Source: an uncultured Lachnospiraceae bacterium (GTDB lineage Bacteria > Bacillota > Clostridia > Lachnospirales > Lachnospiraceae). Taken from it: a stretch of 61,268 nt of DNA. How positions within the stretch are numbered: position 1 is the first letter of the stretch; each line of letters begins with the position of its first letter. The stretch covers positions 1 through 61,268 of the forward strand of contig CACYPS010000011.1 of NCBI GenBank assembly GCA_902776305.1, written 5' to 3'. The notes beneath the pieces were generated by a model. That model was not told the DNA's origin and made no database searches. It was given only the letters and a program-made list of their open reading frames with translations. Made by a program: the position numbers and the translations under genes. Below, piece by piece: positions 3,302 through 23,688 of the stretch.

Positions 3302-3934
3302 TTAATCCAATAGCGCTTTATCAATGACCTGGAAGTTGGCCCTATGAATATAAAGAGCTTTTCCATCGATCATCAGCTTAGTAAATCTTGGCAGGTCTTC
3401 CTCAATCTCCCAATATACTTTATTTCCGGAAAAAGCATAGATCGGCGCTCCCATCTGTGATTTGATGACAACCACCATCGGTTTTCCGAACTTGTTCTTA
3501 ATACTGTTCACCTTCCCGCTGATCAGTGTCGAGGACAAGAGCCCGGATGAATCGCTCTCAATTTGATCCAGATAAAACTCATATTCCGGAGACAGCCGCT
3601 TGTCATAGAAGATGCAGGTATCTCCGCAGGAGATCAGCTGCTTGCCGTCAATCGTGATCGTGATGACAGAGCTCAGATTCTTCGTCGTATACCACTGATC
3701 TGTATCGGAGGCGTAGGTCTTTTCCTCCACGATGTTGTTGTCGATGTCGATCTTTTTTCCGTGGGATTTCAAAGTACGAATCCCGGAATTGTCAAAAATA
3801 TCGATAATGTACTCATTGCCGATAATACTGCCATGGAGATCATGGATCCCGCTCTGCATCTGGGCACAACCGGCAATGCCTGCCATCAGTACCAGAATAA
3901 TTGCTACCATTAATGCTCTCTTTGTTTTTCTCAT
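3302..3934 (-). CDS. lipoprotein resembling the DUF5052 family
   Basis: 210 residues. The N-terminus MRKTKRALMVAIILVLMAG is a lipoprotein signal, with lipobox AGIAGC placing the lipidated Cys at about residue 23, so the mature protein should sit on the outer face of the membrane. The body alternates short beta-strand-like stretches (NEYIIDIFDNSG, VVVIKSQMGAPIYAFSGNK, LMIDGKALYIHRANFQVID) that resemble DUF5052 lipoproteins of streptococci and clostridia, whose function is unknown. It stands alone between the glycerol operon and repeat R1. The family assignment is from memory of conserved strings, not a search. Confidence 0.65.
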   Translation of the reverse strand: MRKTKRALMVAIILVLMAGIAGCAQMQSGIHDLHGSIIGNEYIIDIFDNSGIRTLKSHGKKIDIDNNIVEEKTYASDTDQWYTTKNLSSVITITIDGKQLISCGDTCIFYDKRLSPEYEFYLDQIESDSSGLLSSTLISGKVNSIKNKFGKPMVVVIKSQMGAPIYAFSGNKVYWEIEEDLPRFTKLMIDGKALYIHRANFQVIDKALLD

Positions 3935-5294: not shown

Positions 5295-5834
5295 TTATCT
5301 ATCTGCATCGCACAGTACACACAGGTATTTTGTGGCAGCCTCTTTGAACCGGCCTCCTTTTTCAATTACCTCCAGGCAAAACTCCCGTATGCTCTCCTCC
5401 GTCATTTCGGGTAATGTATTACAGCTGAATGTGCGATAACTATATGCATCGCATTCGCTTGAGGGAAATCTGTATCCGGTGAGCCTGCAAAATGCAAATG
5501 CCGCCATGTCGTAATCCGAATTATAAAGCGCCGCATCTTTCAGTACGTCAGCATCTTCTTCCCGGACAACTTGCTCCCGCAGAACGACATAGTCTTCATA
5601 ACGGGCGTCATTAGGGTCATCAATATTTTCCAGAGGCTCCGGCATTTCATCCAAGCCGTATTTCTCCGCAGCGTATTTCATCATAGAACTGCGGGACGCC
5701 TCCGGAGCGTGCGCGATGAGGTATCTGATCAGTTCTTTGTCCCGATTCGGGTGAAGTCCCATGATATCTCTGCGCAATATATTGCCGTTCTTGATTCTGT
5801 TCCAGTTATCGGATCTGAAAATCTTTACACCCAT
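5295..5834 (-). CDS. hypothetical protein of the kinase/protease locus (179 aa)
   Basis: Not recognised. It is a soluble, acidic, mainly helical protein without signal peptide or membrane segment. Two cysteines end the chain in LCVLCDADR. The ATG at 5834 is preceded by AGGGG at fair spacing; a second in-frame ATG 24 codons further in (before GLHPNRDK) is an alternative. It lies on the same strand as the AAA+/FtsH fusion gene, after the 86-aa gene with a 114-nt gap, so it may be the last gene of that operon and an accessory factor, but nothing in the sequence shows a role. Confidence 0.6.
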   Translation of the reverse strand: MGVKIFRSDNWNRIKNGNILRRDIMGLHPNRDKELIRYLIAHAPEASRSSMMKYAAEKYGLDEMPEPLENIDDPNDARYEDYVVLREQVVREEDADVLKDAALYNSDYDMAAFAFCRLTGYRFPSSECDAYSYRTFSCNTLPEMTEESIREFCLEVIEKGGRFKEAATKYLCVLCDADR

Positions 5835-5948
5835 TTTTTACCCCTGCTTTTCAGCATCAGCAACACATTACGCTGTTTTCTTCTTCACCTATCAAAAAGC
5901 TAACATAGGATTCCCGACTTTGTCAAAGAAAAGAACTGACCAGCCCTA

Positions 5949-6209
5949 TTAATCCAGATATCCATGGTTCCGAAGATATGTCATGAACCGCTCAAGATAC
6001 GCTTCGCACTCTTCCATGGTTAGCGCCTCGATCAATACAGCGATCTTAGGTTCGGCACTGTACCAGCGCAATATAAATCTTCCGTTTTCTCCCAGTTCCT
6101 CTCCCATACCGAGAACCAGTTTTCTCAGGTCTTCATCTTCTACGGCTCTGGCAACGTCATGAACAAATATCTCTTTTACAATAAATTGATTCCTTATATC
6201 TATTTTCAT
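5949..6209 (-). CDS. hypothetical small acidic protein downstream of the AAA+/FtsH fusion (86 aa)
   Basis: Not recognised. 86 residues, acidic, with the central helical stretch ALTMEECEAYLERFMTYLRN. GGAAGG lies 7 nt before the ATG, so it is probably translated. It follows the AAA+/FtsH fusion gene by about 110 nt, a gap filled by tandem copies of that gene's 3' end. Position and strand make it a candidate substrate adaptor or regulator of the protease; this is inference from location only. Confidence 0.6.
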   Translation of the reverse strand: MKIDIRNQFIVKEIFVHDVARAVEDEDLRKLVLGMGEELGENGRFILRWYSAEPKIAVLIEALTMEECEAYLERFMTYLRNHGYLD

Positions 6210-6225
6210 GTACCGCCTTCCTTTT

Positions 6226-6350
6226 CACTTCCGGCAGCTCCTCTATTTCGCTGCTTCACTCTTCCGGCAGCTTCTCTATCTCTCTGCTTTACTTTTCCGA
6301 CAGCTCTCTATCTTCTTGCTTTACTCTTTCAGCAGCTCCTCTATCTCATC
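6226..6350 (-). repeat. tandem repeats of the 3' end of the AAA+/FtsH gene, stop codon included
   Basis: Read on the minus strand, the last codons (E-I-E-E-L-L-K-E-stop) are followed by three degenerate copies of a unit of about 33 bp. Each holds the core GATAGAG-AGCTG and, in the first copies, its own TAA or TGA. The copies run from inside the coding end (6321-6350) through the intergenic gap to just before the ribosome site of the 86-aa gene. It looks like slippage duplication and may affect spacing between the two genes. Confidence 0.8.
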
Positions 6351-9300
6351 TCCCGTAAGCTTATTCTTTTTCAGGAGTTCCGCGACCATCCGGTCAATAC
6401 GAGCTCTGTTTTTCTGAATGATTTCTATGGTTGCACGCATCTCCCTGCCGAGGATTTCATTCACCTTTTTGCGAAATGCCGGATCCCGCATGGCTTCTTT
6501 CGGGTCCATATAGGCGAGACCGAAATCATCGTCCATCCCATACACGCTGATCATAGCCGTTGCAACCCTGGTTGCCTGCTCAAGATCACCCGAAGCGCCT
6601 GTTGACACGCCGTCCTTCTCACCGTAGTAGGCAATCTCGGCCGCACGGCCTCCGAGGCTTGTTCTTATACGATTGATCAGCTCTTCCTTAGTCGACAGAG
6701 GTCCCATCTCCTTCGCAGAATGTTCCATGTAACCGCCATGCGCGCCTCTCGCCACGATTGTCAGATAGGAAGGCGTATTTCCTCCGAGATAGCATAAAAA
6801 TGCATGGCCGCTCTCATGTCTGGCAACCCTCTCCAGATATTCATATCCCCAGTCTTTCTTTTCACCGTGCCGGGTCAGCTCAAATGCCTCATCCAGGATC
6901 GCATCGTCAACTGCCTTACCGGCCTTGACTGCCATACGGTTGGCAAGCTCTACCACACTCGTAAGATTAGCGGGACTCATACCCACTGCCCTCTCGGCGG
7001 TGCGCCGTATCATCTCCTCACTCACCTCACACATAATATTCTTACTGAGCAGCAGGCGAAGCAGTTTCTCCCTGTCATCCGCATTCGGAAGATCGATCAG
7101 GATCTTACGGTCGAACCTTCGTGAGAGCGCCGGATCGATCACACCCATACCTCCGCGGCCTTCTTCGACGTCAAAGTTCGTTGCCGCCAGTACGAACACC
7201 GGACGTTTCGGATCAACGGAGAAGCCGTCCATTTCCGTGAGAAGCGCATTGAGCGCCATCTCTTCCCCGTGAGCATTATGGGAAGCATCACGCTTCCTCC
7301 CGATCGCGTCGATCTCATCAATAAAAATGATAGAAGGAGCGTAACGTCTTGCCTTCTTAAAGAGCGTCCTGACTGCCTCCGGTCCGCTGCCCTGATACTT
7401 TGTGACAAAGGAGCTCGCCACTGCCGGAATAAATGCAACGTCAGACTCGCCAGCCATGGCTCTGGCTAACATGGTCTTCCCTGTTCCCGGAGGTCCGTAG
7501 AGAAGTACGCCCTTCGGAGGAGTGAGTCCCTGTGCGCAGAATTTTCTCGGATTCTTCAGATATTCTATGAAAAATCCCAGTTCATCTTTCGCATCATTTG
7601 CACCGATCACATCCGTAAAATGTATATTCGGCTTCTCCACCTCATCCAGCACGCTGCCGGTATCTTCTGCCGAAGGAGCTCTCTTCAGTGAGAAATCACG
7701 CAGTCTTACAAAAACCTCCTTTTTATCTCTTAAAAGCCTCGGCGCGGTTTCAAATGAGATTACCTTTCTCTCTGAGGCAAGCATAACAGCAACATTTTGC
7801 AGGTAAATCTCACGACAGATTTCCTGAAGCATGTCCTCAAATACAGAGAAATCAGCCTCGGGCTCTTCGATCTTCCCTCTGGCTCCCGCTCGCACGAAAC
7901 TGAGCAGCAGCTCTTCATCGATTTGAACGTTTCCGGACTCAAGGAGATATACCGGAAGCTCCGGAAGCCTCTCGCGGAGCATCTTGAACAGACTCCTCCC
8001 ATCATGGAACAGACTGGCAGCCATCGGCTTATAATCGAAAGCGCCGACCGAAAGCATCCTGTCTTTTTCCGTCATATCTTCATATACTGTTGCCATCGGA
8101 TCGAAGTCTTCCTGACTTTCCATGGCGACATCCAGAAGTACCAACCTGATATCATTTTCGCCTGCCAACCTTAAGGCCTCATCGGCATTGGCAGTATGAT
8201 AAAATTCATAGCCCGGCAAATTTTTCCGGCATTTTTCAACAAATGAAGCCTCCCCGTAGATAAGTATCTCAGGCTTCTCTTCACTGAAGAAAAGCGGCAC
8301 CAAATCCGGCGTAAGAGTATCTGTGTCTACAATAAATCTGATTGTATCCAGTTTTTTCAGCGCTTCGGCAAAGCTGTCCTCGCTCCAAAGTCTGCATACC
8401 TTGAAGATCTCATTTTTGAAGAATAGTTCTGTCTGCGCGCGAAGCGTTCTGGCGTCTGCCGCTCCTCCCTCACGGAAGAGTAGCGCCGTTGCTGTCAGAT
8501 CATCAACCTTGGTCCTGATTTTGTACTGCTTCTCGAAAAGATCTCCGACGCGTCTCAGTTCCCTTGCGCTGATCTTCTCCAGATCATGAGGCGATAGATG
8601 ATTGAACAGGATCGGCCATCCCGTCGCGAGACGGCTTGTTATGGCTGCCGGGAAAAACGGTTCGCCGGTTCTCGGGTCTCTCTCCGTTTCCAGTGCACCG
8701 AGAATCGTTTTTCTGGGAATCCCTGCAGCATTTTGTTTTGCATCACCCTCATAAAGGGATTTGCCTGCATTACTCGTAAAGATAATTATAGTATCCCTGA
8801 AGTTTACAGCCTCCCCGGTGTATCTGTCATTGAGTCTCCCGGCATCCAAAATCTGAAGGAAAAGCTGTATCGTATTGATATGTGCTTTCTCTATCTCGTC
8901 AAAGAGCAGGATACATTTCGGATTTTTCTCAACAAATTCTGTCAGCAGCCCCCTTGCCGCTCCGGAATAGCTTTTTTCAAAGCCGACAAGTCCCATATAG
9001 GTCTGATGGTCTGCATAGGATGACATATCAAATCGCTTGAACGGAAGCCCCAGTGATTCAGCGGCCTGCTCTGCAAGGAATGTTTTCCCGACTCCCGGAG
9101 GACCCACGAAGGCAAATATCGCCTTTGGTCTCTTCCTGGATGTGTCGCTTTCGGCCAGCACCTCAGCTGCAAATATTCCTTCCGCAAATGCATGGACCAC
9201 ATGATCCTGCCCCTGCACCGTACTGAGCAGCTTTGCTCTCAGTTTTCTGATATTTGACGTTAATTCCGGCAGGAATCCGCTGCCCGTTTCCATATTATCA

Positions 9301-9929
9301 CCGCCGGAGCTGTGCGAATCATTTTGATTGCCGTTTCCACCGGCGCTGCCCGTTTTCTCCGGCCTGTTCGATCCGGCTGGTCTGTCTGTTGTTTTATCCG
9401 CTTCCTTCGATCCGCCTGACTTATCCGCAGGTCTCTCCGCCTTCTGATGTCCATCCGGTTTATCTGCCGATTTTGTTTCATCCTTCTTGTTCGGATTCCA
9501 TTCGGCTATATCACAGACCTGCATTAACGTCAGTGTGGGTTTTTCCACAATGGCGCTCAGCAGATCACAGGGAAATATCTCCTTCGAATTGCGTGCATGA
9601 GCTATTTCCTCTGCTCTGCTGTAGTATTCATCAACATGTTCCGTATCAGCCATTTTCCTGACAGTTAATTCCAGTCTGAGCCGCGCCCTTAAGTGCGTGG
9701 TATCCACTTTATATACATCCCTGAACAGGATGCTCAATGCGTGAATCTCGATATCCGTCACACGCATCATGATTGCCGGAGCCTTAAGAAAATCTTCGGC
9801 TTTCATCTCGCTCAGTTTCAATATTCCGAGGAAAAGGTCCTCGACCGAAGGCTTCTCCTGTTTCCTGTATCTTGCCTCTGCCGCCGCTCGCGGCATGACT
9901 ACTGCGCGCATTGTCGTTGAGTATAGCAT
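6321..9929 (-). CDS. giant fusion: Clp-N-like domain, ClpA/B-type AAA+, receiver-like domain, FtsH-type AAA+ with M41 metalloprotease
   Basis: 1202 residues. Residues 1-145 resemble a Clp N-domain. A polar linker (about 150-215) precedes a ClpB D2-like AAA+ module with Walker A GPPGVGKT (276-283) and Walker B LLFDEIEKAH (341-350). Residues 553-700 look like a response-regulator receiver fold with LVLLD (Asp600) and a late VRAGARGKIEEP strand. The C-terminal third is FtsH-like: GPPGTGKT (812-819), IIFIDEIDAIG (867-877), zinc motif HESGH (1038-1042) and the third-ligand region GASGDLEQAT. No membrane segment is present, unlike FtsH, so it should be a cytosolic ATP-dependent unfoldase/protease. 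GGAGG precedes ATG 9929. It follows the Clp-N kinase gene by 37 nt. I know of no characterised protein with this order. Confidence 0.9.
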   Translation of the reverse strand: MLYSTTMRAVVMPRAAAEARYRKQEKPSVEDLFLGILKLSEMKAEDFLKAPAIMMRVTDIEIHALSILFRDVYKVDTTHLRARLRLELTVRKMADTEHVDEYYSRAEEIAHARNSKEIFPCDLLSAIVEKPTLTLMQVCDIAEWNPNKKDETKSADKPDGHQKAERPADKSGGSKEADKTTDRPAGSNRPEKTGSAGGNGNQNDSHSSGGDNMETGSGFLPELTSNIRKLRAKLLSTVQGQDHVVHAFAEGIFAAEVLAESDTSRKRPKAIFAFVGPPGVGKTFLAEQAAESLGLPFKRFDMSSYADHQTYMGLVGFEKSYSGAARGLLTEFVEKNPKCILLFDEIEKAHINTIQLFLQILDAGRLNDRYTGEAVNFRDTIIIFTSNAGKSLYEGDAKQNAAGIPRKTILGALETERDPRTGEPFFPAAITSRLATGWPILFNHLSPHDLEKISARELRRVGDLFEKQYKIRTKVDDLTATALLFREGGAADARTLRAQTELFFKNEIFKVCRLWSEDSFAEALKKLDTIRFIVDTDTLTPDLVPLFFSEEKPEILIYGEASFVEKCRKNLPGYEFYHTANADEALRLAGENDIRLVLLDVAMESQEDFDPMATVYEDMTEKDRMLSVGAFDYKPMAASLFHDGRSLFKMLRERLPELPVYLLESGNVQIDEELLLSFVRAGARGKIEEPEADFSVFEDMLQEICREIYLQNVAVMLASERKVISFETAPRLLRDKKEVFVRLRDFSLKRAPSAEDTGSVLDEVEKPNIHFTDVIGANDAKDELGFFIEYLKNPRKFCAQGLTPPKGVLLYGPPGTGKTMLARAMAGESDVAFIPAVASSFVTKYQGSGPEAVRTLFKKARRYAPSIIFIDEIDAIGRKRDASHNAHGEEMALNALLTEMDGFSVDPKRPVFVLAATNFDVEEGRGGMGVIDPALSRRFDRKILIDLPNADDREKLLRLLLSKNIMCEVSEEMIRRTAERAVGMSPANLTSVVELANRMAVKAGKAVDDAILDEAFELTRHGEKKDWGYEYLERVARHESGHAFLCYLGGNTPSYLTIVARGAHGGYMEHSAKEMGPLSTKEELINRIRTSLGGRAAEIAYYGEKDGVSTGASGDLEQATRVATAMISVYGMDDDFGLAYMDPKEAMRDPAFRKKVNEILGREMRATIEIIQKNRARIDRMVAELLKKNKLTGDEIEELLKE

Positions 9930-9966
9930 ACATACACCTCCGCTTCTTTTATCCCTTCTTTATTCT

Positions 9967-12900
9967 TCACCACGCATGAATCTCTTCCACTTTTTCAAGA
10001 AGGATCTCCGCAGGTATATTGCCGAATCCCCGATCCGATAATTCGACCGAAACCGCATCCATGATTTCCGATACGTCAGCGTCCGGATACGCCCGAGATG
10101 CAATTTCCACATAAGGAAGCAGCCTGTCTGACCACTCCGTGGGCGATGGCGTGTACGCATACATACATTGCCAGATATATGTCTTTTCTTCCCGTTTGAT
10201 TGCCACATATTTTCCGTTTCCGGATATGCATATATCATCAATATAATCCGGCGTGTGTATCACACTCAGCACCCTGTCATTTACAGGATCGTAAAAGTAA
10301 AGGTCCTCACGGTTCGCGACCAGAACAAACTGATCATTCGGCATATAACAAGCTCTTTGCGGAGAATGAAGATAGAATCCCCGCTGCATGGCAACAGGAT
10401 CGGAGTGTTGTCTTATTTCTTTTGTTTCAAGGTCTATTGAGAACAGAGCATACCAATCACAGGCAAGAACCACCCTCGTAAAAGGTGTATTGCAGGTCAT
10501 CCTGGCACGGCCGTTATGTAATGTCAGCTCTTCCGAGCGATTTTTAAATATATGAATCAGGTACAAGTGCCTTTGCGACAATACGAGCGCTCTCATACCA
10601 TCATAACTGATCTCGACCTGTATTATTCTTTCATCCGTTATTTCCTTTTCTTCCAGCAGAGTTCCTTTCGGATTCCAGAAACCGATTCTCCCGTCTTCCA
10701 GAATCGATGCAAAGAGTTGTCCGTCCCGGCTTATCTTCAAGCCGATCACCTCACGGCTTACTCCCTCACATTTTCCGAGGATCTTTCCCGTATCTGCCTC
10801 TATCACGTAAAATATCTTTTCACCTCTCACCGCCCTGAGATAGAACTTTCCGTCCGGCGATATTTCCGACGTCACATGCGAGCCGTCTCCATAATCCGCT
10901 ATCTGCTCCCATGTGCCGGTATCATAGAGTTTGTCACCATACAAAAATAAGGCGGAGTTCTTACTGAAACTGATTTCATCCTCCTCGCCTGTACCCTCAA
11001 TAACCGCAACCGGCCAGTGTGCGATAACCTGCATGGGGAAGCATTTTTTAGCTAACCGGTCATTTATTTCCAGCCAGCGAGTGCCGAAGACAGCATCCCG
11101 GTATTCTCCGCTCATTCTGGAAATGAGCATTTCGCGTGCTGCCTCCCCGTATTCCCCACGGTCCAGGTAACCGCGCAGCTCATCGATTTTGTCATCACAC
11201 TTCTTCTGAAACTGCTCATAATCGATGATACTCCTGATCAAACTCAACTCATATAATGCTATGTAATCCTCATCCGAATCATAAGCAGTATCAATCAAGT
11301 CACGGGATTCTTCATCCAGATAGTTCCTTACCTGATGTGCAACATCCCACTCACCCGCTTCCATAGAAAACCTTGCCAGAAGAACCCCGGGTTCCGGCTT
11401 GCTGAAGTAATTCTCCCAATTGGCTGAGAGATAGCACACGCCTTCCTTTGGGGTAAGAAGACCTTCTCGCAGACTGTAGAGACAGTAATTATAAAGCGCT
11501 CTGGTGTTTCCCGGATCCTCCTTCAGGGCCATTTTCCAAAGACGCAAAGCCTCTTCCGGTTTCCCGAGATCCAGGTAACTCAGCGCCATATTATTCAGGC
11601 TGTCTGCAGTTGTTCCGGCAGCTTTCGGATAAAGAAGGTCGTATTCTTCGCCGACTTCCGTCCTGTAAATCTCTTTTAAAGCAATCTCGATTTTTGCAAA
11701 ATCATGATATCTGTCATCCGGATCCTGTGCCATACACCTTGCGAGAAGTTTCTGAAGTCGATCCGGAACCGGCACGCGGCACATTTCAAAATACTCATAG
11801 CAGACAGAACCGACCATCGGACCGGTCAGTTCCCTTCCGTGCGCCCAGGGTTTTCCTCCGAGATACATTTCCAGAACACTCACTGCCCAGCTGTAAATAT
11901 CCGTCCTTCTGGAAAGCGTCTTTGACATAGACTGTTCCGGTGAACAGTATGCGGGCGTCATGCCGCCGGAAGGGGTAATTATCGTGGAACCCGGATCGAT
12001 TTCTTTCACCGTCCTCTCCCCTTTTGACGCAGTGAGCATTGAGCGCGCCTTAGCGAGACCGAAATCACTCACCTTGGCACCCCAGTTCTCAGTAAGCAAA
12101 AGATTGTCCGGTTTAACGTCCTGGTGGATAAGCTCGTTCTCATGAGCGTAGTGAAGTCCGCGGGCGAACTGAATGGCTATGTTAAGAAGCCGTCTCGATA
12201 CTTCATCGTCCGATCCTTCATAAAGACTTCCGTCATTTATGTGATTCTCCAGACTTCCGTTCTCCATCCACTCGGAGAAAATAGTCGGAATTCCCTCGAC
12301 CAGACGCACATAATAGCAGGATACGATATTCGGATGCAGACCAAGCCTGATCCATGAATCACATTCTCTAATAAAGCTTTCTTTCTGTTTTTCAGACACG
12401 AAAAATGCCGGTTTCGGACGTTTCATAGCCAGATCTACATCCCAGCTCGTGTGGTGAACGCGCCACACGGAGCCCATACCGCCTTCTATTGCATCTGAAA
12501 GAACGCGATACCGGTCCAGGACTATTCCGTCTTTCTTTATATCTTTATTGGAAGCAGCCGGGGCATCTTCCTCAAAAACGGTGCCGTCGGTTTCGTCCTC
12601 CTCGTAAACGGTGCCGTCGGTTTCGTCTCCCTCATAAACGGTGCCGTCGGTTTCGTCTCCCTCATAAACGGTGCTGTCGGTTTCATCTTCCTCATAAACG
12701 GTGCTGTCGGTTTCATCTTCCTCATAAACGGTGCTGTCGGTTTCATCTTCCTCATAAACGGTGCTGTCGGTTTCGTCTCCCTCGTAAACGGTGCCGTCGG
12801 TTTCGTCCTCCTCGTAAACGGTGCCGTCGGTTTCGTCTCCCTCATAAACGGTGCCGTCGGTTTCTTTCTCTACGTAAACAGTCCCGTGCGGCCATTCGGA

Positions 12901-13341
12901 GCACCTGTCCTTCCATTTTTCAATCCTCATTGCCGCTCTTAACGTCTCAGGCGGATTCTCAAGGATTACATTGAGCAGATCCACGGCACAGCACACTGAG
13001 CTGCCTCGCATCCTTGCGACCTCTTTTGCCCTGCTTTGCAGAGCGTCAACATCGGCCGGTACTACTTTCCTGCTCAGCATTGTTTCCAGCCGGAGAATTT
13101 GTGTCATATGATCGATACGTATTTCAAATGTCTGTTCAAACAGCTGCTTCAGTTCACTGATTTCCCCGCTCAATGCCTGCGCATTATCCTCACGCCCGTC
13201 AGTAATGTCTGAAGCCGTAATCCCTGTCAATTTGAGAATCCCAAGAAATATATGCTCCTGCGATATAAATCTCTTCATCCCTCTCTTAGCCTCGACTGAT
13301 GCCTCGTTCATTACATAATCTACAGTTTTAGAAACCTCCAT
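9967..13341 (-). CDS. Clp-N-like domain / Thr-repeat linker / Ser-Thr kinase / TPR / beta-propeller protein
   Basis: 1124 residues. Residues 1-145 are homologous to the N-domain of the neighbouring AAA+/FtsH fusion (shared LFLGILKL-type, LRLE and RAKEVARMRGS-type strings). Residues 161-260 are ten 10-residue repeats of the form TDGTVYEEDE. A Hanks-type kinase follows (about 275-560): glycine loop GGMGSVW, Lys307, catalytic loop HQDVKPDN (406-413, HRD changed to HQD but Asp kept), DFG (426-428) and SPEQ in place of APE. TPR-like helices cover about 575-640. From about 770 there are WD40/propeller-like strands (ISPDGKFYLRAV, ISRDGQLFASIL, ISGNGKYVAIKR). No membrane segment. Between the PP2C gene (38 nt) and the AAA+ gene (37 nt), so surely co-transcribed. 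Probable role: cytosolic kinase coupled to the protease. Confidence 0.88.
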   Translation of the reverse strand: MEVSKTVDYVMNEASVEAKRGMKRFISQEHIFLGILKLTGITASDITDGREDNAQALSGEISELKQLFEQTFEIRIDHMTQILRLETMLSRKVVPADVDALQSRAKEVARMRGSSVCCAVDLLNVILENPPETLRAAMRIEKWKDRCSEWPHGTVYVEKETDGTVYEGDETDGTVYEEDETDGTVYEGDETDSTVYEEDETDSTVYEEDETDSTVYEEDETDSTVYEGDETDGTVYEGDETDGTVYEEDETDGTVFEEDAPAASNKDIKKDGIVLDRYRVLSDAIEGGMGSVWRVHHTSWDVDLAMKRPKPAFFVSEKQKESFIRECDSWIRLGLHPNIVSCYYVRLVEGIPTIFSEWMENGSLENHINDGSLYEGSDDEVSRRLLNIAIQFARGLHYAHENELIHQDVKPDNLLLTENWGAKVSDFGLAKARSMLTASKGERTVKEIDPGSTIITPSGGMTPAYCSPEQSMSKTLSRRTDIYSWAVSVLEMYLGGKPWAHGRELTGPMVGSVCYEYFEMCRVPVPDRLQKLLARCMAQDPDDRYHDFAKIEIALKEIYRTEVGEEYDLLYPKAAGTTADSLNNMALSYLDLGKPEEALRLWKMALKEDPGNTRALYNYCLYSLREGLLTPKEGVCYLSANWENYFSKPEPGVLLARFSMEAGEWDVAHQVRNYLDEESRDLIDTAYDSDEDYIALYELSLIRSIIDYEQFQKKCDDKIDELRGYLDRGEYGEAAREMLISRMSGEYRDAVFGTRWLEINDRLAKKCFPMQVIAHWPVAVIEGTGEEDEISFSKNSALFLYGDKLYDTGTWEQIADYGDGSHVTSEISPDGKFYLRAVRGEKIFYVIEADTGKILGKCEGVSREVIGLKISRDGQLFASILEDGRIGFWNPKGTLLEEKEITDERIIQVEISYDGMRALVLSQRHLYLIHIFKNRSEELTLHNGRARMTCNTPFTRVVLACDWYALFSIDLETKEIRQHSDPVAMQRGFYLHSPQRACYMPNDQFVLVANREDLYFYDPVNDRVLSVIHTPDYIDDICISGNGKYVAIKREEKTYIWQCMYAYTPSPTEWSDRLLPYVEIASRAYPDADVSEIMDAVSVELSDRGFGNIPAEILLEKVEEIHAW
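12571..12893 (-). repeat. in-frame 30-bp minisatellite (10 units plus a degenerate one)
   Basis: Ten 30-bp units occupy 12571-12870, and a decayed eleventh lies at 12871-12893. Units differ at only a few positions (GGT/AGT for Gly/Ser, GAG/GGG for Glu/Gly), so homogenisation is recent. The period keeps the frame, so copy number could vary without breaking the kinase. The encoded unit has a Thr with Glu at +3, surrounded by acidic residues. Confidence 0.95.
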
Positions 13342-13379
13342 AATGGACCCCCGTAATCATCTTTTCTGTATTCATGTGT

Positions 13380-14201
13380 TCAAATCTCGCTCGCGAGACT
13401 TGTTTGTTGCCCACCGCCTACAGAGGCGGGAGCATCTCTCGCTGAGATATATATGTATGCCGCTGAAATATTATCTCTTCCGCCATTTTTGTTAGCTTCA
13501 TCTATCAGCTTACCGCAGACTGTTTCCGGGTTTCCGGAAGAGCGCATGATCCTCGCCATTTTACGTTCATCCACCATTCCGTACAGTCCGTCACTGCACA
13601 GTAGGATCCGGTCTCCCGGCTTTACATCGACGATATAGGTCTCCGGCGTCGCAGGTTCCGGCATCCCGACAAAAGCGGTGAGACGAGAGCTTCTGTAATC
13701 ATTTTTCGCCTGCTCCTTTGTCATCTCACCGTTTCTCACAAGATAACCCGCAATGTTCATATCTTCCGAGATCTGCACCGGATTCTTCTTGTATTTCGGA
13801 AGAAGATATCCCCTGCTGTCTCCGAGACATACGAATATTGCCTTATCGTCGTGGAGCAGTACACCTGCCAGCGTAGCGCCGAATCGAATATGACCCCATG
13901 CGTTTCCCTGTTCATAAAGCCTGTCGCTGATTAATCGGACAGTATTGCGAAGGAAGTCGGACACTTCCTCCGCATTTAGCTGAGAAAATTTATATTCACC
14001 TGTACCGATCGTAACCGGCAGTGCCTTTTTCACATATTCCGAAGCCTTTCCGCCCTGCTCAAGTCCTCCCATACCATCGGAAACCGCAAAAAATCCTCTC
14101 TCGGGCGAAACGATCACCTCATCCTGATTGCTCTTCCTGCTTTTCCCGATATCGACCAGACCTGCAAAACGGTACTCATATCTGAAATGCTTACTCTTCA
14201 T
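13380..14201 (-). CDS. PP2C-type Ser/Thr protein phosphatase
   Basis: 273 residues of the PPM/PP2C family, a metal-dependent phosphatase expected to reverse the kinases around it. Metal and catalytic motifs are intact: NQDE (25-28), SDGMGG (41-46), GDSR (127-130), SDGLYGMV (203-210) and GRDN (241-244). The ancestral fold should end shortly after residue 250. The last 23 residues and the stop codon come from dispersed repeat R3 (13381-13453), including the string GGGQQTSLASEI, which also appears in frame in other R3 copies. The start has AGGGATGAT upstream. It lies 19 nt after the FHA-kinase gene and 38 nt before the Clp-N kinase gene, clearly one operon. Confidence 0.92.
   Translation of the reverse strand: MKSKHFRYEYRFAGLVDIGKSRKSNQDEVIVSPERGFFAVSDGMGGLEQGGKASEYVKKALPVTIGTGEYKFSQLNAEEVSDFLRNTVRLISDRLYEQGNAWGHIRFGATLAGVLLHDDKAIFVCLGDSRGYLLPKYKKNPVQISEDMNIAGYLVRNGEMTKEQAKNDYRSSRLTAFVGMPEPATPETYIVDVKPGDRILLCSDGLYGMVDERKMARIMRSSGNPETVCGKLIDEANKNGGRDNISAAYIYISARDAPASVGGGQQTSLASEI
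13381..13453 (-). repeat. R3 dispersed repeat, short internally deleted copy
   Basis: The segment has the two ends of R3, joined without the middle of about 105 bp found at 32936-33114 and 41205-41382. Shared landmarks are CTCGCTCGCGAGACTTG, TTTGTTGCCCACCGCCTA, the GGCGGG arm and the GAGATATAT end. It lies within the coding end of the PP2C gene and provides its stop codon. Confidence 0.88.
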
Positions 14202-14220
14202 ATCATCCCTGCATATTCAT

Positions 14221-15870
14221 TCAATCAATTATATCCATACAATAGTTCCGGGTTCCTTCCGGCAGTGCTCGTATAATGTCATAACGAAGGGCTGCTGCTG
14301 AATTGCAGCCGATCACCGGTCTCTCAACAAGTGCCCTGTCTATCACCTGCGCAAGCCTTTCCGGTACGGAGGGATCCCTCTGCCGGATAGGCGTAGCGCT
14401 CTCCGTGACTAGAATCTGCCACATATTTACTCCCTGTCTGAAGTTCTTCGGGAATTGACCCGTAAGCATATAGTAATAGCTGGCAGCGGCAGCCCAAACA
14501 TCGACCTCGGGTTTCGCAAAACGGCAGTCAAGAGCCTGCTGGCGGGGCATGAACGGGACTGTACCTTTGACCATTCCTTCCGAACTCATTGTGGTGAACC
14601 CGGCTGCCTGGAAAGCCTTTGCCATGCCGAAATCCGCCACCTTCGCGACTGGATGATCACTCTTATCCATAAGGAAAATGTTACCCGGCTTAAAATCCCG
14701 GTGTACCAGCCCCTTTGCATCCATAAGCTTTTCCCTGCGTCCGCCAAATAGCCCTCTTTTGACGATCTCAGCCTGCACCGGCACGTTGTGGACATATTCC
14801 AGTCCTTCCAAAGCCTGAAGAATAATGTATGTCGCAAGATTAAGAGGCAGCTTTCCGCCATATCGTTTCACCAGATCATCGACACTGCCTCCTTCGCATA
14901 TATCCATCAGAATATAATAGACATTGTTGGAAAATCCCGTCTTATAGGTGCGAACGACATTTTCATGGTCCAAAAACTCAGTGAGCTTTGCTTCCCTGAG
15001 GAACATGTCTCTTGCTTTTTTGTCTCCGGCAATCTGAGGCAGCATGGTCTTCAGCGCGTAGAGCTTTCCGGTCTTGTTCTCTCTCACTTTCCATACTTCT
15101 CCCATCCCGCCTTTTCCGAGAAGCGCGATCTTATCGAAGCCTTCCACGGGCGAAGGACCGACCGGTCGTTCCTGCTTTCCTCCGAGAATTGCTATCAGGA
15201 GCTCTCCCAGAATCTTATCCATCTCTTCGTCGTGCTTAGGATTATTCTGCTCCGGCTCTTCTTCCGGCGCTTCTTCAGGTTCTGCTTCCGACTGTCCTTT
15301 TCCCGACGTTTCTTTCGCTTCTTCAGACCAAGCTACTGCTTCCGACTGTCCTTTTTCCGCCGTTTCTATCGGTCCTTCCGGTACAGCCTCCGACTCTTCC
15401 GCCGCACCCTCATTTCCCATGAAGTCAATTCCGTCATATGCTGCCGGATTCTCTTCGTCCTCGTCTGCTTCAGGCATAGTTCCGTCCCATGCACCGGAAA
15501 TAGCCATGATATCCGGCTCTTCGACAGTACATTTCAATCTGCACTTCTTGCCGATCCCGATCACATCTCCGTCGTGCAGTTCATACTCTTTATGCGCATC
15601 GCGGCTGGCTTCTTCCCATGATTTATCCCTCTCTCTCTGACCGATCTTCACATCATTCAGGAAAGTGCCGTTTAAGCTTCCGAAGTCCTGAAGTTTTACC
15701 GTCGGAGGGTTGATATCAAGCAGACAGTGATATCTTGACACCGTTTTTTCGGGAAGCACGATCCCGCAGTCCGCCTGACGTCCCACAAAAATCCGCTCCG
15801 CATCTTCATATTCGAACTTCTGTCCCGCACCTTCGCCTTTTATTATCTCAATCGTTATTTTTTCTTTCAT
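14221..15870 (-). CDS. FHA-domain Ser/Thr protein kinase
   Basis: 549 residues. The N-terminal FHA domain (about 1-115) has phosphothreonine-binding landmarks GR (30-31), SRYH (45-48) and NGT (67-69). A long acidic linker (about 120-220) contains two similar GQSEA-type segments. The kinase domain (about 245-549) has GKGGMGEVW (252-260), Lys274, catalytic loop HRDFKPGN (390-397) and DFG (413-415). No membrane segment, so cytosolic. An AGGAGG ribosome site precedes the ATG. It opens the FHA-kinase/PP2C/Clp-N-kinase/AAA+-FtsH operon, after a terminator of the upstream unit. The FHA domain could dock on phosphorylated Thr repeats of the Clp-N kinase, as FHA domains favour acidic or hydrophobic residues at +3; this is inference. 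Confidence 0.93.
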   Translation of the reverse strand: MKEKITIEIIKGEGAGQKFEYEDAERIFVGRQADCGIVLPEKTVSRYHCLLDINPPTVKLQDFGSLNGTFLNDVKIGQRERDKSWEEASRDAHKEYELHDGDVIGIGKKCRLKCTVEEPDIMAISGAWDGTMPEADEDEENPAAYDGIDFMGNEGAAEESEAVPEGPIETAEKGQSEAVAWSEEAKETSGKGQSEAEPEEAPEEEPEQNNPKHDEEMDKILGELLIAILGGKQERPVGPSPVEGFDKIALLGKGGMGEVWKVRENKTGKLYALKTMLPQIAGDKKARDMFLREAKLTEFLDHENVVRTYKTGFSNNVYYILMDICEGGSVDDLVKRYGGKLPLNLATYIILQALEGLEYVHNVPVQAEIVKRGLFGGRREKLMDAKGLVHRDFKPGNIFLMDKSDHPVAKVADFGMAKAFQAAGFTTMSSEGMVKGTVPFMPRQQALDCRFAKPEVDVWAAAASYYYMLTGQFPKNFRQGVNMWQILVTESATPIRQRDPSVPERLAQVIDRALVERPVIGCNSAAALRYDIIRALPEGTRNYCMDIID

Positions 15871-16063: not shown

Positions 16064-16094
16064 GCAAAAAGAGGTGGTCTGCCAGACCACCTCT
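16064..16094 (-). terminator. strong rho-independent terminator after the membrane kinase gene
   Basis: On the minus strand an almost perfect 12-bp stem, AGAGGTGGTCTG pairing with CAGACCACCTCT, is followed by TTTTTGC. It lies 16 nt past the stop of the membrane kinase gene and separates the TetR/HTH/kinase unit from the FHA-kinase operon. Confidence 0.88.
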
Positions 16095-16109: not shown

Positions 16110-17474
16110 TCATTTTTCAAAGACTCGATCTGTATTCGCCAGAATAAGCGCCATATCCCCAAGTGTGAGATCTAACGGTTTATTGACGCCTTCCGTGATA
16201 CCGTGCTTTTCGGCAAATGCTACCGCAATTCTCACCCCCGGATAAAACCCGTTGTCATCCTTAAGACTTGACCAGTCAGCAACTATAGATGCATCATGCG
16301 CCTTAACAGCCGCATAGATTATCGGATCCCTGTCTATATTCTGTTCATCTTCCCATCCCCACGGAAGGAAATACGCATCGTTCTCCTGAGGCATGTCCGT
16401 GTTGATTCCGTAAACATAATCTCTGTCGAGTCCATAGAGTTCGATCATCGCCCTGCGCAGATCCCCTACATGAGCTATGTCGGAATCATTATCAAACATA
16501 TCAGTGCCATACTTGTTTTTCATGTAGCTGACCGCATCTTTCACTCTTTCCTCGTCGGTCATATACGCCGGAATTGCCCCCTCCGTAAAGGGTGTATATG
16601 TGATATACCGATAAATCCTGATTCCTCCGTAGACAAGAAGACCCACAACAGCCGCCATACAGATTGCAAGAAAACTCATACGAATTCTCTGCGAGCGAGG
16701 GTTCGCTCTCAAGAGTGCTTTCCTGACCTGATCAACATCGGAAAAACGGTCTTTTGGGGAAAATCCGGTGCATTTCTTTATGATTTTTGCAAGCGGAGCA
16801 TATACCTTGATGTTGCTGTTCTCTCTTGTACTACCCGTGAGCAGCCATCTGAGCAGAATTCCCATAGAATAGATATCCGTTCGTTCATCCGTCTGCGAAA
16901 ACCCGTACTGCTCCGGCGGAGCATAGGAACGTGTTCCGAAAAATACTGTGTCCGTATCATTTTCCTGCTTGTGTAAACGCGCAATATCAAAGTCAATCAG
17001 AACTACACTTCCATCCGGTCTGATAATGATGTTCTGCGGTTTTATATCGCGATGAATTACAGGCGGCTCTCTGTGATGCAGATAAGCAAGGATATCGCAA
17101 AGCTGTATGCAGATATCTACTATTTCCTCCTGTGAAAGATTATGCTCGGTGGCATACCGGTCCAGAGAATCCCCTTCCACATATTCCCGTACGGCGATCG
17201 TCATGGAATCGTTCTCATAAGTACCAGAATACCCGGGAAGTCCTTTATGAGAAAGATTCGTCAGGATATCATTGCCCGTGAGATTTTTCCATAGCGACTT
17301 ATCAAAGCATTTCGCTATATACCCGACACCCTTATGATCCCGCACAAGAAAGGTACATATTCCGTTTTGTTCGGATAAACACTCCATGATATCAAACTCC
17401 GAAGAAAACTCTTCCGGATAATCGGTATCACTGTATGATTCCAAAATTTCATTTAGAATATCGTCATTCTTCAT
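16110..17474 (-). CDS. membrane-anchored Ser/Thr protein kinase with external C-terminal domain
   Basis: 454 residues. The Hanks-type kinase (about 25-255) has catalytic loop HRDIKPQN (141-148), DFD (161-163) in place of DFG, and APPEQ (185-189). The glycine loop is poorly conserved, and the presumed ATP-binding Lys lies in IAKCF. One membrane segment (about 266-288, MSFLAICMAAVVGLLVYGG) follows a positively charged stretch, placing the kinase inside and about 150 C-terminal residues outside as a possible sensor. Its start overlaps the HTH gene by 11 nt, implying coupled translation. A strong terminator follows. The DFD variant still has the metal-binding Asp, so activity is likely. Confidence 0.9.
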   Translation of the reverse strand: MKNDDILNEILESYSDTDYPEEFSSEFDIMECLSEQNGICTFLVRDHKGVGYIAKCFDKSLWKNLTGNDILTNLSHKGLPGYSGTYENDSMTIAVREYVEGDSLDRYATEHNLSQEEIVDICIQLCDILAYLHHREPPVIHRDIKPQNIIIRPDGSVVLIDFDIARLHKQENDTDTVFFGTRSYAPPEQYGFSQTDERTDIYSMGILLRWLLTGSTRENSNIKVYAPLAKIIKKCTGFSPKDRFSDVDQVRKALLRANPRSQRIRMSFLAICMAAVVGLLVYGGIRIYRYITYTPFTEGAIPAYMTDEERVKDAVSYMKNKYGTDMFDNDSDIAHVGDLRRAMIELYGLDRDYVYGINTDMPQENDAYFLPWGWEDEQNIDRDPIIYAAVKAHDASIVADWSSLKDDNGFYPGVRIAVAFAEKHGITEGVNKPLDLTLGDMALILANTDRVFEK

Positions 17475-21214: not shown

Positions 21215-21499
21215 TCAGAATCCGTAATAACTTCTTACAGGCTGAAAATCCTGCTCCTTTTCAATTAACGGCAGAGATTTCACATCCATCGAGTCGATCT
21301 GTATGAACTTACTTCTCTCAATTGCGATAATAACGCTGTCGATCTGCTCTTCCGTTCCCTGTATTTCCATGGTCACAGTGCCGTCCGGATTATTTCTGAC
21401 CCATCCGGTCACGCCTATCTGCGCAGCTGCCATTCTCGCTCTGTATCGAAATCCCACTCCCTGGACCCGACCTCTGAATACAATACGCCGTCGTATCAT
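21215..21499 (-). CDS. acyP: acylphosphatase
   Basis: 94 residues from ATG 21499. It hydrolyses acyl-phosphate bonds. The catalytic Arg lies in RGRVQGVGFRYRAR and the catalytic Asn in GWVRNNPDGTV, both typical. The start is fixed by GGGAGGTG just upstream and by a 1-nt overlap with the stop of the SpoIIE-type gene (TAATG); a longer in-frame start at 21556 would lie within that gene. The overlap implies coupled translation. In this organism acetyl and butyryl phosphate, made by Pta and Buk nearby, are possible substrates, but this is only suggestive. Confidence 0.93.
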   Translation of the reverse strand: MIRRRIVFRGRVQGVGFRYRARMAAAQIGVTGWVRNNPDGTVTMEIQGTEEQIDSVIIAIERSKFIQIDSMDVKSLPLIEKEQDFQPVRSYYGF

Positions 21500-23688
21500 T
21501 ATGCACCTCCCGGTCTTATACCTGACTGATTTTCTCTCCCTTTGTACTCCAGACACAACATTGTCATATCATCGAACTGTTCCGCCCCGTTGACAAAGCT
21601 CTCCACCGCTTCCTGCACGTTATTCAGGATTTCCCGCGGAGATGCATTGACATCTTTATTCAGCGCTTCGAGCATTCCGTCCGTGCCGAACATATTATAG
21701 CTTGCGTCAGCTGCCTCGGGAATACCGTCTGTATAAAGGAACAGCTTGTCGCCTGAATTCAGTTTTATTTCATAATCGGTGTAGATAATACCCTCCATAC
21801 CGCCGAGCACAAGTCCGTGCTTATCCCGCAATAGTGCGAATTTGCCGTCCTGTTTAAGTGCGGGATATTCGTGGCCGGCATTTGCCGCCATGATTTTACC
21901 GGTACTGATTTCAAGAATACCGATCCAGACAGTGACGAACATATCCTCCTGATTGCTGGAGCAGATGGCTTCATTTGTCTTATTCAGTATCTCAGACGGA
22001 CTCTGTCCGAGCATCGCATAGCTCTGCAGGATGACCTTTGAGATCATCATAAACAGGGCCGCAGGAACACCCTTGCCGCTGACATCTGCCATGACCATGC
22101 CCAGATGATCTTCGTCGATCAGGAAGAAATCATAGAAATCTCCGCCGACCTCCCTGGCAGGACCCATGGTGGCATAAATATCGAATTCCCTTCGGTCCGG
22201 GAACGGCGGGAAGACACCCGGAAGCATACTGTTCTGAATCCGGTTCGCCATATGAAGCTCTGTACTGACGCGCTCCTTTTCCCTTGTGATCTCAGTTATA
22301 TCTGCTATGTACTGCTTTGTCCTTTTCGAGAGATCCGTGAACGCCTCTGCAAGGACTTCGATCTCATCATCCGTTCTGTAGGTATCTTTCATGACAAACA
22401 GCGAACCGGTCTCGCTGCTGCGGTTGATATCCTTTGTCATCTCCTCGATCGGCTTGACGATATTCCTTGAAGCAGAGAGTGCCAGATAGGATCCTATGAG
22501 AATGACTGCCAGCACAAGAAGTACAAAAGTACCCAGTATTTTTGCATTTCCTGCACGGAACGCAGCACTTGCATCCGCGTTGATGCTGTCATATTCTGCC
22601 AGCAACTGTTTTTCCGGCTGTTCCGTAAGCTCCTTATCGACTGCCATGATCATCGCCCAGCCGACTGTCGGCATCGGTACGCCCGCAATATAGTAGTCTT
22701 TTCCGCTCAGATTCACGGTCATCAGATTCGTTTTTTCTCTGAGAGCCTGCCTGATGAACTGAGCAAGCTGCATATTACTGCTCTCCCTCAGATCTGCGGC
22801 ATCCTCCGCAAGTTCTGTCTCAAACAGACCGTTGTTTTCAGGCGCAAATATCACCTGCCCGTTATTATTAACTATAAAAAGGCATCCGCCTTCACCGGAA
22901 GAAGATGCGATAGACTCGTCTATACTTGCCATATTGATGTCAATTCCGACAACGCCCATAATTTTGTCATCCACGAAAATCGGAACTGAGCAGGTCACAC
23001 ACATCTCGCTGTCAAATGCATCACGTATGACGCCGGTAAAATGAATTCCCCCATCTTCCACAGCCCCTCTGTACCATGGTCTTTGCCGTACAGCAAAAGG
23101 TATCTGATTCCCTTTCTCATCCAGCTTATCTGCAGTTGTGTTGTCAGCAGCAAGATGCGTTCCGTCCGCAAGTCCGATAAAACAGGAACTTATCTTTTCA
23201 GAGCTGTTCAGCATGGCTATCATGGTACTGCTCATATGGGCGACCGCACCGAGTAATTCAGACTTTGTGTAATCACCCCCGTTCTCACTCAGGGCAAATG
23301 CCGATGCAGTACCGTCCTTGGAGATATCCGGTCCGCCGATCATGACAGGTGCCACTGAATCCCTGTTCTTAAGCAGTTCCTCAGCCATGCTCTGAAGTAT
23401 TGTGATGTCTGTGACCACCTCGGAAAATTCATGATCCGCATTCTCAGCCTCTACACCCGTCATCCTTACGAACGAATCCTCAAGGACCTGAGACATCGTC
23501 TCCTTTGAAATGCCGGATATAGCCTGCTGCTGTTCAATACGAGTATCTTCTACTAGCCTGATCAACATTTTGTCCTGAAAAAAAGATACCACGGTGAGTG
23601 CACCGATCGCCAGGCATAAAACCAGCATTACGAGCCTGACCATCTTTTTCTGAAGGCCGCCAAATGTCATTCCCATTATTTTCTTCAA
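21499..23688 (-). CDS. membrane sensor SpoIIE/RsbU-type PP2C phosphatase with HAMP domain
   Basis: 729 residues. A membrane helix (about 16-37) is followed by a large extracellular sensor (about 40-390; CACHE-like strings RPWYRGAVEDGG and VGIDINMASID), a second helix (about 396-418), a HAMP region and a SpoIIE phosphatase domain (about 500-715). Metal motifs are REVGGDFYDFF, MVMADVSGKGVPAALFM, NAGHEYPAL, LYTDGIPEA and FDDMTML. It probably dephosphorylates an anti-anti-sigma factor in response to an external ligand, but no STAS or anti-sigma gene is nearby. The start codon is TTG at 23688, with GGGGAGGTG 5-8 nt upstream; internal ATGs four and six codons later have poorer spacing. Confidence 0.92.
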   Translation of the reverse strand: MKKIMGMTFGGLQKKMVRLVMLVLCLAIGALTVVSFFQDKMLIRLVEDTRIEQQQAISGISKETMSQVLEDSFVRMTGVEAENADHEFSEVVTDITILQSMAEELLKNRDSVAPVMIGGPDISKDGTASAFALSENGGDYTKSELLGAVAHMSSTMIAMLNSSEKISSCFIGLADGTHLAADNTTADKLDEKGNQIPFAVRQRPWYRGAVEDGGIHFTGVIRDAFDSEMCVTCSVPIFVDDKIMGVVGIDINMASIDESIASSSGEGGCLFIVNNNGQVIFAPENNGLFETELAEDAADLRESSNMQLAQFIRQALREKTNLMTVNLSGKDYYIAGVPMPTVGWAMIMAVDKELTEQPEKQLLAEYDSINADASAAFRAGNAKILGTFVLLVLAVILIGSYLALSASRNIVKPIEEMTKDINRSSETGSLFVMKDTYRTDDEIEVLAEAFTDLSKRTKQYIADITEITREKERVSTELHMANRIQNSMLPGVFPPFPDRREFDIYATMGPAREVGGDFYDFFLIDEDHLGMVMADVSGKGVPAALFMMISKVILQSYAMLGQSPSEILNKTNEAICSSNQEDMFVTVWIGILEISTGKIMAANAGHEYPALKQDGKFALLRDKHGLVLGGMEGIIYTDYEIKLNSGDKLFLYTDGIPEAADASYNMFGTDGMLEALNKDVNASPREILNNVQEAVESFVNGAEQFDDMTMLCLEYKGRENQSGIRPGGA

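Follow-up and report, generated by a model that had tools for sequence, protein, structure and literature searches.

A conserved gene module that may place a Clp–FtsH fusion protease under Ser/Thr phosphorylation control in gut and other anaerobic bacteria

How might a bacterium bring an ATP-dependent protease under reversible Ser/Thr phosphorylation? The question is raised by a run of genes at positions 5295–15870 of contig CACYPS010000011.1 (assembly GCA_902776305.1, an uncultured Lachnospiraceae bacterium), whose 61,268 nucleotides form the window analysed here. On the minus strand, in transcription order, this run encodes a protein joining an FHA domain to a Ser/Thr kinase (FHA-kinase, P0005, 549 aa, 14221–15870), a PP2C phosphatase (P0004, 273 aa, 13380–14201), a second kinase that we call the sensor kinase (P0003, 1124 aa, 9967–13341), and a fusion protease uniting Clp-type and FtsH-type AAA+ domains (P0002, 1202 aa, 6321–9929). 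A previous reading of the same DNA, made from sequence only, had described four closely spaced genes on one strand followed by two small ones, with these same identities; both statements are borne out, the spacing by gaps of 19, 38 and 37 nt between the coordinates and the identities by Pfam matches to FHA, both kinases, PP2C, AAA_2, AAA and Peptidase_M41. The same gene order and spacing are seen again in other genera, and also in metagenome-assembled genomes (MAGs) labelled as other phyla, which argues that the unit is more than a chance arrangement, and the four large genes are a conserved module. We lean modestly towards the view that it serves the stress response, with Ser/Thr phosphorylation controlling the hybrid AAA+ protease by way of the sensor kinase, the FHA-kinase and the phosphatase.

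The putative output, P0002, carries on a single chain a Clp-N-like region (residues 1–150), a linker, an AAA_2 domain (267–397), a receiver-like domain (~550–720), an FtsH-type AAA domain (808–946) and an M41 peptidase domain (1034–1199) whose HExxH motif reads HESGH; Walker motifs can be read in both AAA sequences. The first AAA domain, of the Clp D2-like AAA_2 type, is nearest to ClpE (117.7 bits) and ClpA (107.5 bits), with Clp-type profile matches ending at query residues 101–191 of 195. The last 436 aa align with FtsH structures over residues 3–436 (2ce7_A); VCP-type AAA chains outrank those structures on the AAA part, over ~230 residues, and the protein scores 337 bits against an FtsH NCBIfam model with a cut-off of 600. 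A second match in the same genome, restricted to the FtsH part and lying in a 777-aa frame (G000:C26), is presumably an ordinary FtsH. P0002 has no strongly hydrophobic segment of the kind by which FtsH is anchored in the membrane (maximum 19-aa Kyte–Doolittle value 1.17). Across 28 open reading frames (ORFs) of the family these maxima range from 1.05 to 1.80, and six fusions (L041, L042, L045, L050, L056 and L058) reach 1.6–1.8 near residues 116–125, inside the Clp-N region, so that the test is less clear for those six.

Assignment of the first 150 residues to the Clp-N family is weak. A profile of 25 fusion rows finds, among PDB chains, the N domains of ClpC (E 3.3e-5, ~55 residues), and of three fusion N-termini scanned with Pfam Clp_N, that of L056 exceeds the cut-off (29.6 versus 20.7 bits); the model gives no match in the two window proteins concerned, the fusion and the sensor kinase, and the L041 fusion also lies below the cut-off. 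The Clp-N call of the sequence-only reading thus holds by comparison with ClpC and between the two window proteins (see below), and in the window proteins fails at the Pfam cut-off.

Between the two AAA domains, an AlphaFold model (pLDDT, the predicted local confidence, 77.6) shows a receiver fold into which a segment is inserted after strand 3, matched by Foldseek to a receiver domain with E 4.2e-7 and a TM-score of 0.54 by query and 0.76 by target. By its residues the domain is degenerate, lacking the canonical acidic pair: with columns assigned by eye, none of 23 aligned rows has an acidic residue at the first acidic position, 11 have D/E at the second, and 17 retain the acceptor Asp. The inserted loop holds a TVYE motif (8079–8090, minus strand) and is probably flexible, its residues 51–90 being modelled at pLDDT ~44–60. 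Across the 23 rows the loop column holds T (14 rows), S (5), K (1) or a gap (3); Thr or Ser fills it in 15 of the 16 aligned loci that have the sensor kinase and in 4 of the 7 that do not.

Signal reading would fall to P0005, a predicted phosphothreonine reader. Its FHA domain (~15550–15789; 58 bits in Pfam) has the pocket residues GR, SRYH and N-G-T, which align with their GarA and OdhI counterparts; 10 aligned sequences keep them without exception, apart from the G of NG, which is nearly invariant. GR, SxxH and NG are likewise listed as phosphothreonine-pocket motifs in PMC1262709. The kinase domain of P0005, from residue 247 (Pkinase, 119.6 bits), has an intact HRDFKPGN and DFG. The candidate eraser, P0004, matches Pfam PP2C and PP2C_2 and scores 166 bits with an Stp1-like NCBIfam model, under its 230-bit cut-off.

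A candidate ligand for the FHA domain lies on the partner kinase. P0003 is laid out as a Clp-N-like region (residues 1–150), T-V-Y-E repeats (164–259), a kinase domain (286–545), a TPR (579–612) and, from ~640, a variable, propeller-like C-terminus; its homologues have in common a kinase+TPR core of ~390 aa. HQDVKPDN and DFG are present, and the Hanks-type residues (Lys, HxD, catalytic Asn, DFG) are kept in both window kinases; most sensor kinases have HQD, with HRD in L050 and L056. The ten TVYE/TVFE repeats are encoded by a 30-bp × 10 tandem array found with TRF (12566–12864, minus strand), coding for TVYE(E/G)DETDG, and as a tandem repeat the array could change quickly in length. Shuffled sequences contain 0.16 such motifs on average, and none of 5000 reaches 10. 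More widely, T-[VIL]-[YFL]-[DE] motifs precede the kinase domain in 11 of the 12 sensor kinases with a complete N-terminus (L123 stands outside this count), in 1–10 copies, a number that at most one of 5000 shuffles reaches in ten of those kinases. The background in 357 other ORFs is 0.39 per 1000 aa, and seven of eight FHA-kinases scored have no copy, L052 having one. Among the sensor kinases without Clp-N, 9 of 10 have their first copy at residue 6–12. The motif places an acid at +3 from the Thr, and the classical preference of FHA domains is pTxxD; the array is plausibly a docking array for a phosphothreonine-binding FHA domain.

The sequence-only reading had made the Clp-N domain of this kinase a key part of the system, a claim that did not survive comparison: two of the 12 complete kinases bear it (the window's and that of L035), and with 10 lacking it we rejected the Clp-N kinase as a defining feature. 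Clp-N also precedes the array in the close relative G022, whose sensor kinase is cut by the contig end. The kinase N-terminus matches the fusion N-terminal profile with an hhalign probability of 99.6 and is 34% identical to the Clp-N region of the neighbouring fusion over 134 aa, a similarity that suggests copying from the fusion gene; Clp-N on the kinase is probably a rare add-on acquired from the adjoining protease gene. The L123 kinase, judged by eye, carries a hydrophobic, membrane-like module instead of Clp-N, and many TVYD copies after it. The window genome also holds a second, truncated copy of 320 aa (L060, contig C52, 521–1483, minus strand), with Clp-N, TVYE repeats and a kinase N-lobe; an ORF at 3471–4733 of L060 resembles what we take to be a transposase. 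Overall the earlier interpretation is partly supported, the recurrent feature being the T-[VIL]-[YFL]-[DE] motifs rather than the kinase Clp-N, and the receiver-like domain, the ten repeats, the TPR and the propeller-like C-terminus go beyond it.

What would such a kinase sense? We compared 13 of the 18 sensor-kinase ORFs, leaving out the truncated or fragmentary L039, L044, L046, L047 and first L056 copy and retaining L034, which is cut at its N-terminus; boundaries between sensor and core were set by hand and, for identity comparisons, taken from phmmer ends. Over the 78 pairs, fusion identity spans 52–96% and kinase-core identity 51–97%, and the two correlate (r 0.88, the pairs being non-independent). 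In 48 pairs BLAST detects no similarity between the C-terminal regions at 1e-3; 4 pairs reach at least 50% identity there and 26 match more weakly. Among the 31 pairs whose fusions are at least 65% identical, 16 have no C-terminal match. Identity drops sharply past the TPR: between the window and L035 kinases it goes from 82% (residues 521–560) to 32% (601–640) and 15% (681–720). WD40 propellers form the C-termini in L041, L042, L045, L049, L050 and L056, the window kinase matches a propeller weakly, and the C-termini of L035, L036, L037, L038 and L052 are without a Pfam match at 1e-3; a model of the L038 sensor region from three sequences is mostly beta and, at pLDDT 50.1, too poor for a structure search. 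Sensor ends appear to have been swapped between loci while the kinase+TPR core tracks the protease, and for the weaker pairs fast divergence of propeller-like repeats may be at work instead of replacement. L056 encodes a tandem pair of kinases, and a single L047 frame contains two kinase units.

How far does the linkage extend? A pattern search with the fusion brought the number of loci to 27 including the window (26 others), with the sensor kinase in 17 and the FHA-kinase and a PP2C homologue in 11 each; several of these loci end before kinase or phosphatase genes would be visible, and genes in relatives are longest-ORF calls. Loci joining sensor kinase and fusion come from Lachnospiraceae, Syntrophomonas, Syntrophaceticus and MAGs labelled Deferribacteraceae and Tannerellaceae, and the proposed link between kinases, phosphatase and protease thereby holds over a long evolutionary distance. 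Among 145 relatives, the FHA-kinase (E ≤ 1e-90) occurs in exactly the three genomes that have the full-length fusion, a coincidence of 2e-6 if the genes were independent; all three belong to one genus, so that much of the pattern could simply reflect common descent. In a fourth relative, G054, the match is limited to a distant protein of 1613 aa. The fusion region was matched at 1e-60 in 3 of 391 genomes of the class, 2 of 398 of the phylum and 3 of 299 of the family, each count including the window's own genome; four of the five other genomes with a match have partial, distant ones, and two of the three at class level are distant. No kinase cassette without the protease was found at strict cut-offs, the kinase core occurring in one of 371 class genomes, the window's own.

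At other loci the fusion keeps different company. It follows Ter-type genes in two clusters, which supply the stress context: PRTase_2/TRSP, StiP-PELOTA, ATPgrasp_Ter and HAD in L043 (3972–13471), and C-C bond lyase, ATPgrasp_Ter, StiP-PELOTA and HAD in L048 (4962–12766). In L054, L055, L058 and L059, genes for a histidine kinase-like protein and a response regulator lie directly upstream (by Pfam for L054, by clustering for the other three) and the fusion stops before M41, possibly a protease turned pure unfoldase under two-component control. L051 has the end of another kinase just upstream and, behind it on the other strand, a histidine kinase/response regulator pair, and L040 has neither kind of neighbour. 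Such settings suggest a general effector role for the protease, with different stress inputs wired to it. Still further upstream in L048 lie WXG100, FtsK/SpoIIIE and other genes resembling type VII secretion; and distant AAA_2–FtsH fusions with other N-termini occur in L068, L070 and L071, the first two preceded by a pair of ~150-aa paralogous ORFs and the third having an extra FtsH-type sequence.

We propose that the exchangeable C-terminal sensor of P0003, often a WD40 propeller, would perceive damage or a ligand, whereupon the kinase would phosphorylate itself on the Thr of its N-terminal T-x-x-D/E motifs. Once phosphorylated, these motifs would be docking sites for the FHA domain of P0005, and this second kinase would thereby be activated or concentrated. 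One or both kinases would then phosphorylate the protease, plausibly on the Thr/Ser of the receiver loop, and/or its substrates, leading to release or targeting; we infer activation rather than inhibition. The Clp-N domain and Clp-type AAA+ ring would unfold the substrate and an FtsH AAA+/M41 ring, presumably stacked upon it, would degrade it, with stress as the likely signal and the PP2C phosphatase resetting the switch.

Several observations weigh against this proposal. The motif class was defined by eye on these very kinases before counting, and acidic Thr repeats could be a mere linker; L056 has a single copy, a number reached by 38 of 5000 shuffles, and L045 has none in its sensor kinase despite the presence of FHA-kinase, PP2C and kinase. 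On the protease, the strict T[VIL][YFL][DE] form is found in the receiver loop of 8 of 32 listed family ORFs, the L056 fusion has K at the position, and L041, L042 and L050 have Ser, whose phosphorylated form FHA domains bind poorly. Because the search patterns came from the window's own protein, close relatives are over-represented among the loci, many of which are MAG contigs, and the genome searches scored the best few candidates per genome. In L037 the FHA-kinase lies ~4 kb away with no PP2C in view. Finally, the fusion was expected not to occur regularly without the kinases, an expectation that held in part: 10 of the 27 loci show no sensor kinase, three being too short to judge (L051, L053, L057) and seven judgeable loci having the fusion without these kinases (L040, L043, L048, L054, L055, L058 and L059).

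Other accounts of the same genes put phosphorylation elsewhere. The kinases could mark substrates, with Clp-N and FHA domains bringing phosphorylated clients to a protease that is always active, in a Ser/Thr counterpart of the arginine-phosphate marking for ClpCP. Phosphoarginine-directed degradation by ClpC is a precedent, and Clp-N is retained at the fusion N-terminus with a matching copy on the window kinase; however, the 10 complete sensor kinases without Clp-N, and a variability that is C-terminal and fits a signal sensor better than an adaptor for a single client, make this unlikely. At the other extreme, the fusion could be a housekeeping-like protease with the kinase operon as a separate unit merely travelling along. 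It does occur with Ter-type genes, with two-component genes or with no such partners, the kinase stands apart from the FHA-kinase in L037, and the three-of-three coincidence lies within one genus; yet that coincidence of FHA-kinase and full fusion among 145 genomes, together with an order kept across families and a small loop difference between loci with and without the kinase, leaves such independence very improbable.

An anti-phage or conflict system, in which the exchangeable C-terminal domains would recognise invader products and the protease would destroy an essential protein, seems to us decidedly unlikely, and the patchy distribution and variable sensors are what sustain it. The full-length fusion is sporadic (3 of 145 relatives, with any match at 1e-60 in 3 of 391 class genomes), sensor ends are dissimilar between loci, the kinase domains match PD-T4-6 and mad6 profiles and the second AAA domain IetA (PADLOC 2023), and one neighbour in L036 is a non-specific endonuclease. 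The PADLOC matches are at domain level, however, with no full match to a described anti-phage system, and none of 10 hand-picked large neighbours from six loci matches PADLOC at 1e-10; by Pfam these are two aminoacyl-tRNA synthetases, a FecCD transporter, an S-layer-domain protein, an M23/S41 peptidase, an endonuclease and four proteins without a family. Two short patterns hit at least 45 loci on viral contigs as weak AAA matches, the best among those listed having 43% identity over a short stretch, and no close copy of the fusion stands among the matches listed; no plasmid record covers 80% or more of the AAA_2+receiver query. The Ter-type context suggests stress instead, although Ter may itself serve phage resistance.

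The proposed phosphorylation-gated module can be set beside known machines. With FtsH, the fusion has in common an FtsH-type AAA domain and an M41 domain with HESGH, and differs by the preceding Clp-N, Clp-type AAA and receiver-like domains and by the lack of a membrane segment in the window protein; with the Hsp100 unfoldases ClpC, ClpA and ClpE it has in common Clp-N and a D2-type AAA_2 domain, but it has a single Clp AAA domain and carries its own peptidase in the same polypeptide. McsB–ClpCP, in which arginine-phosphate-marked proteins are degraded by a Clp-N-bearing AAA+ machine, is likewise a case of kinase-directed degradation; the window module instead has Hanks-type Ser/Thr kinases, FHA, PP2C and a self-contained FtsH-type peptidase, and no McsB-family arginine kinase was found among the 17 window genes scanned, the set to which the following absences also refer. 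In type VI secretion, threonine-phosphorylation control includes the phosphatase PppA. There too a Ser/Thr kinase, a phosphatase and an FHA protein act on a large machine; in Agrobacterium, TssL is reportedly phosphorylated on Thr14 by PpkA and bound there by Fha (PMC3953482). Our module differs in its protease output, in having FHA fused to a second kinase and in a candidate ligand on the partner kinase, and no type VI structural or secretion gene was found. The MoxR-vWA-FtsH ternary conflict systems described in PMC7159879 similarly combine an FtsH-type AAA with a second AAA domain, have Clp-N or propeller domains nearby and diversify in architecture, but their first FtsH AAA copy is inactive, whereas the fusion has Walker motifs in both AAA domains, plus M41; no vWA or MoxR gene was found among the scanned window genes. 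Ter stress-response operons are linked through L043 and L048, where the fusion stands behind Ter-type genes, and none of these was found among the scanned window genes.

Around the module, two small ORFs follow the fusion gene on the minus strand, P0006 (86 aa, 5949–6209) and then P0001 (179 aa, 5295–5834; no Pfam match at 0.1), preceded by gaps of 111 and 114 nt and followed after 32 nt by a major facilitator superfamily (MFS) transporter gene. Their proposed membership in the system holds insofar as they recur, in five and four loci respectively including the window, and is limited by their occurrence only in Lachnospiraceae-labelled loci; they are accessory proteins, P0006 in some Lachnospiraceae. 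A 33-bp × 3.8 repeat (6221–6344) at the end of the fusion gene and in the following gap resembles duplicated C-terminal codons. Upstream of the unit, a strong terminator-like hairpin of 11 pairs with a T tail (16070–16094, minus strand) separates it from a further kinase gene (16110–17474); it has the longest stem in a hairpin scan that is overall near chance (11 found versus 9.4 expected), and a promoter scan was at chance level (17 versus 15.1 expected). That kinase gene was considered as a member and not adopted, given the intervening hairpin and no clustered homologue in L034–L059; the close relative G022 retains it at the same position. About 6 kb upstream of the unit lies another phospho-signalling gene, for a SpoIIE-type phosphatase with a dCache sensor (21499–23688). 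L041, L042 and L050 encode a 503–555 aa protein directly 5′ of the FHA-kinase, a candidate regulator whose weak helix-turn-helix match stays under the Pfam threshold in L041 and L042, the L050 protein being assigned by clustering.

AAA+ proteases are usually controlled by adaptors. Here the individual domains are all known, and in searches of open-licence PMC papers we found no description of the gene set, which the sequence-only reading had likewise not recognised from any described system, of the fusion protease or of the sensor exchange. Tentatively, and with somewhat less than even confidence, we see in it a one-chain Clp/FtsH protease gated by a two-kinase phospho-relay, with an FHA domain reading an array of variable length, swapped sensors and alternative Ter or two-component wiring. 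A conserved module that sets Ser/Thr kinases with plug-in sensors over an AAA+ protease would, if this is true, constitute a new logic of proteolysis control. With candidate docking motif, reader, eraser and output all within one ~10-kb gene run, it would then offer a compact, tunable proteolysis switch.

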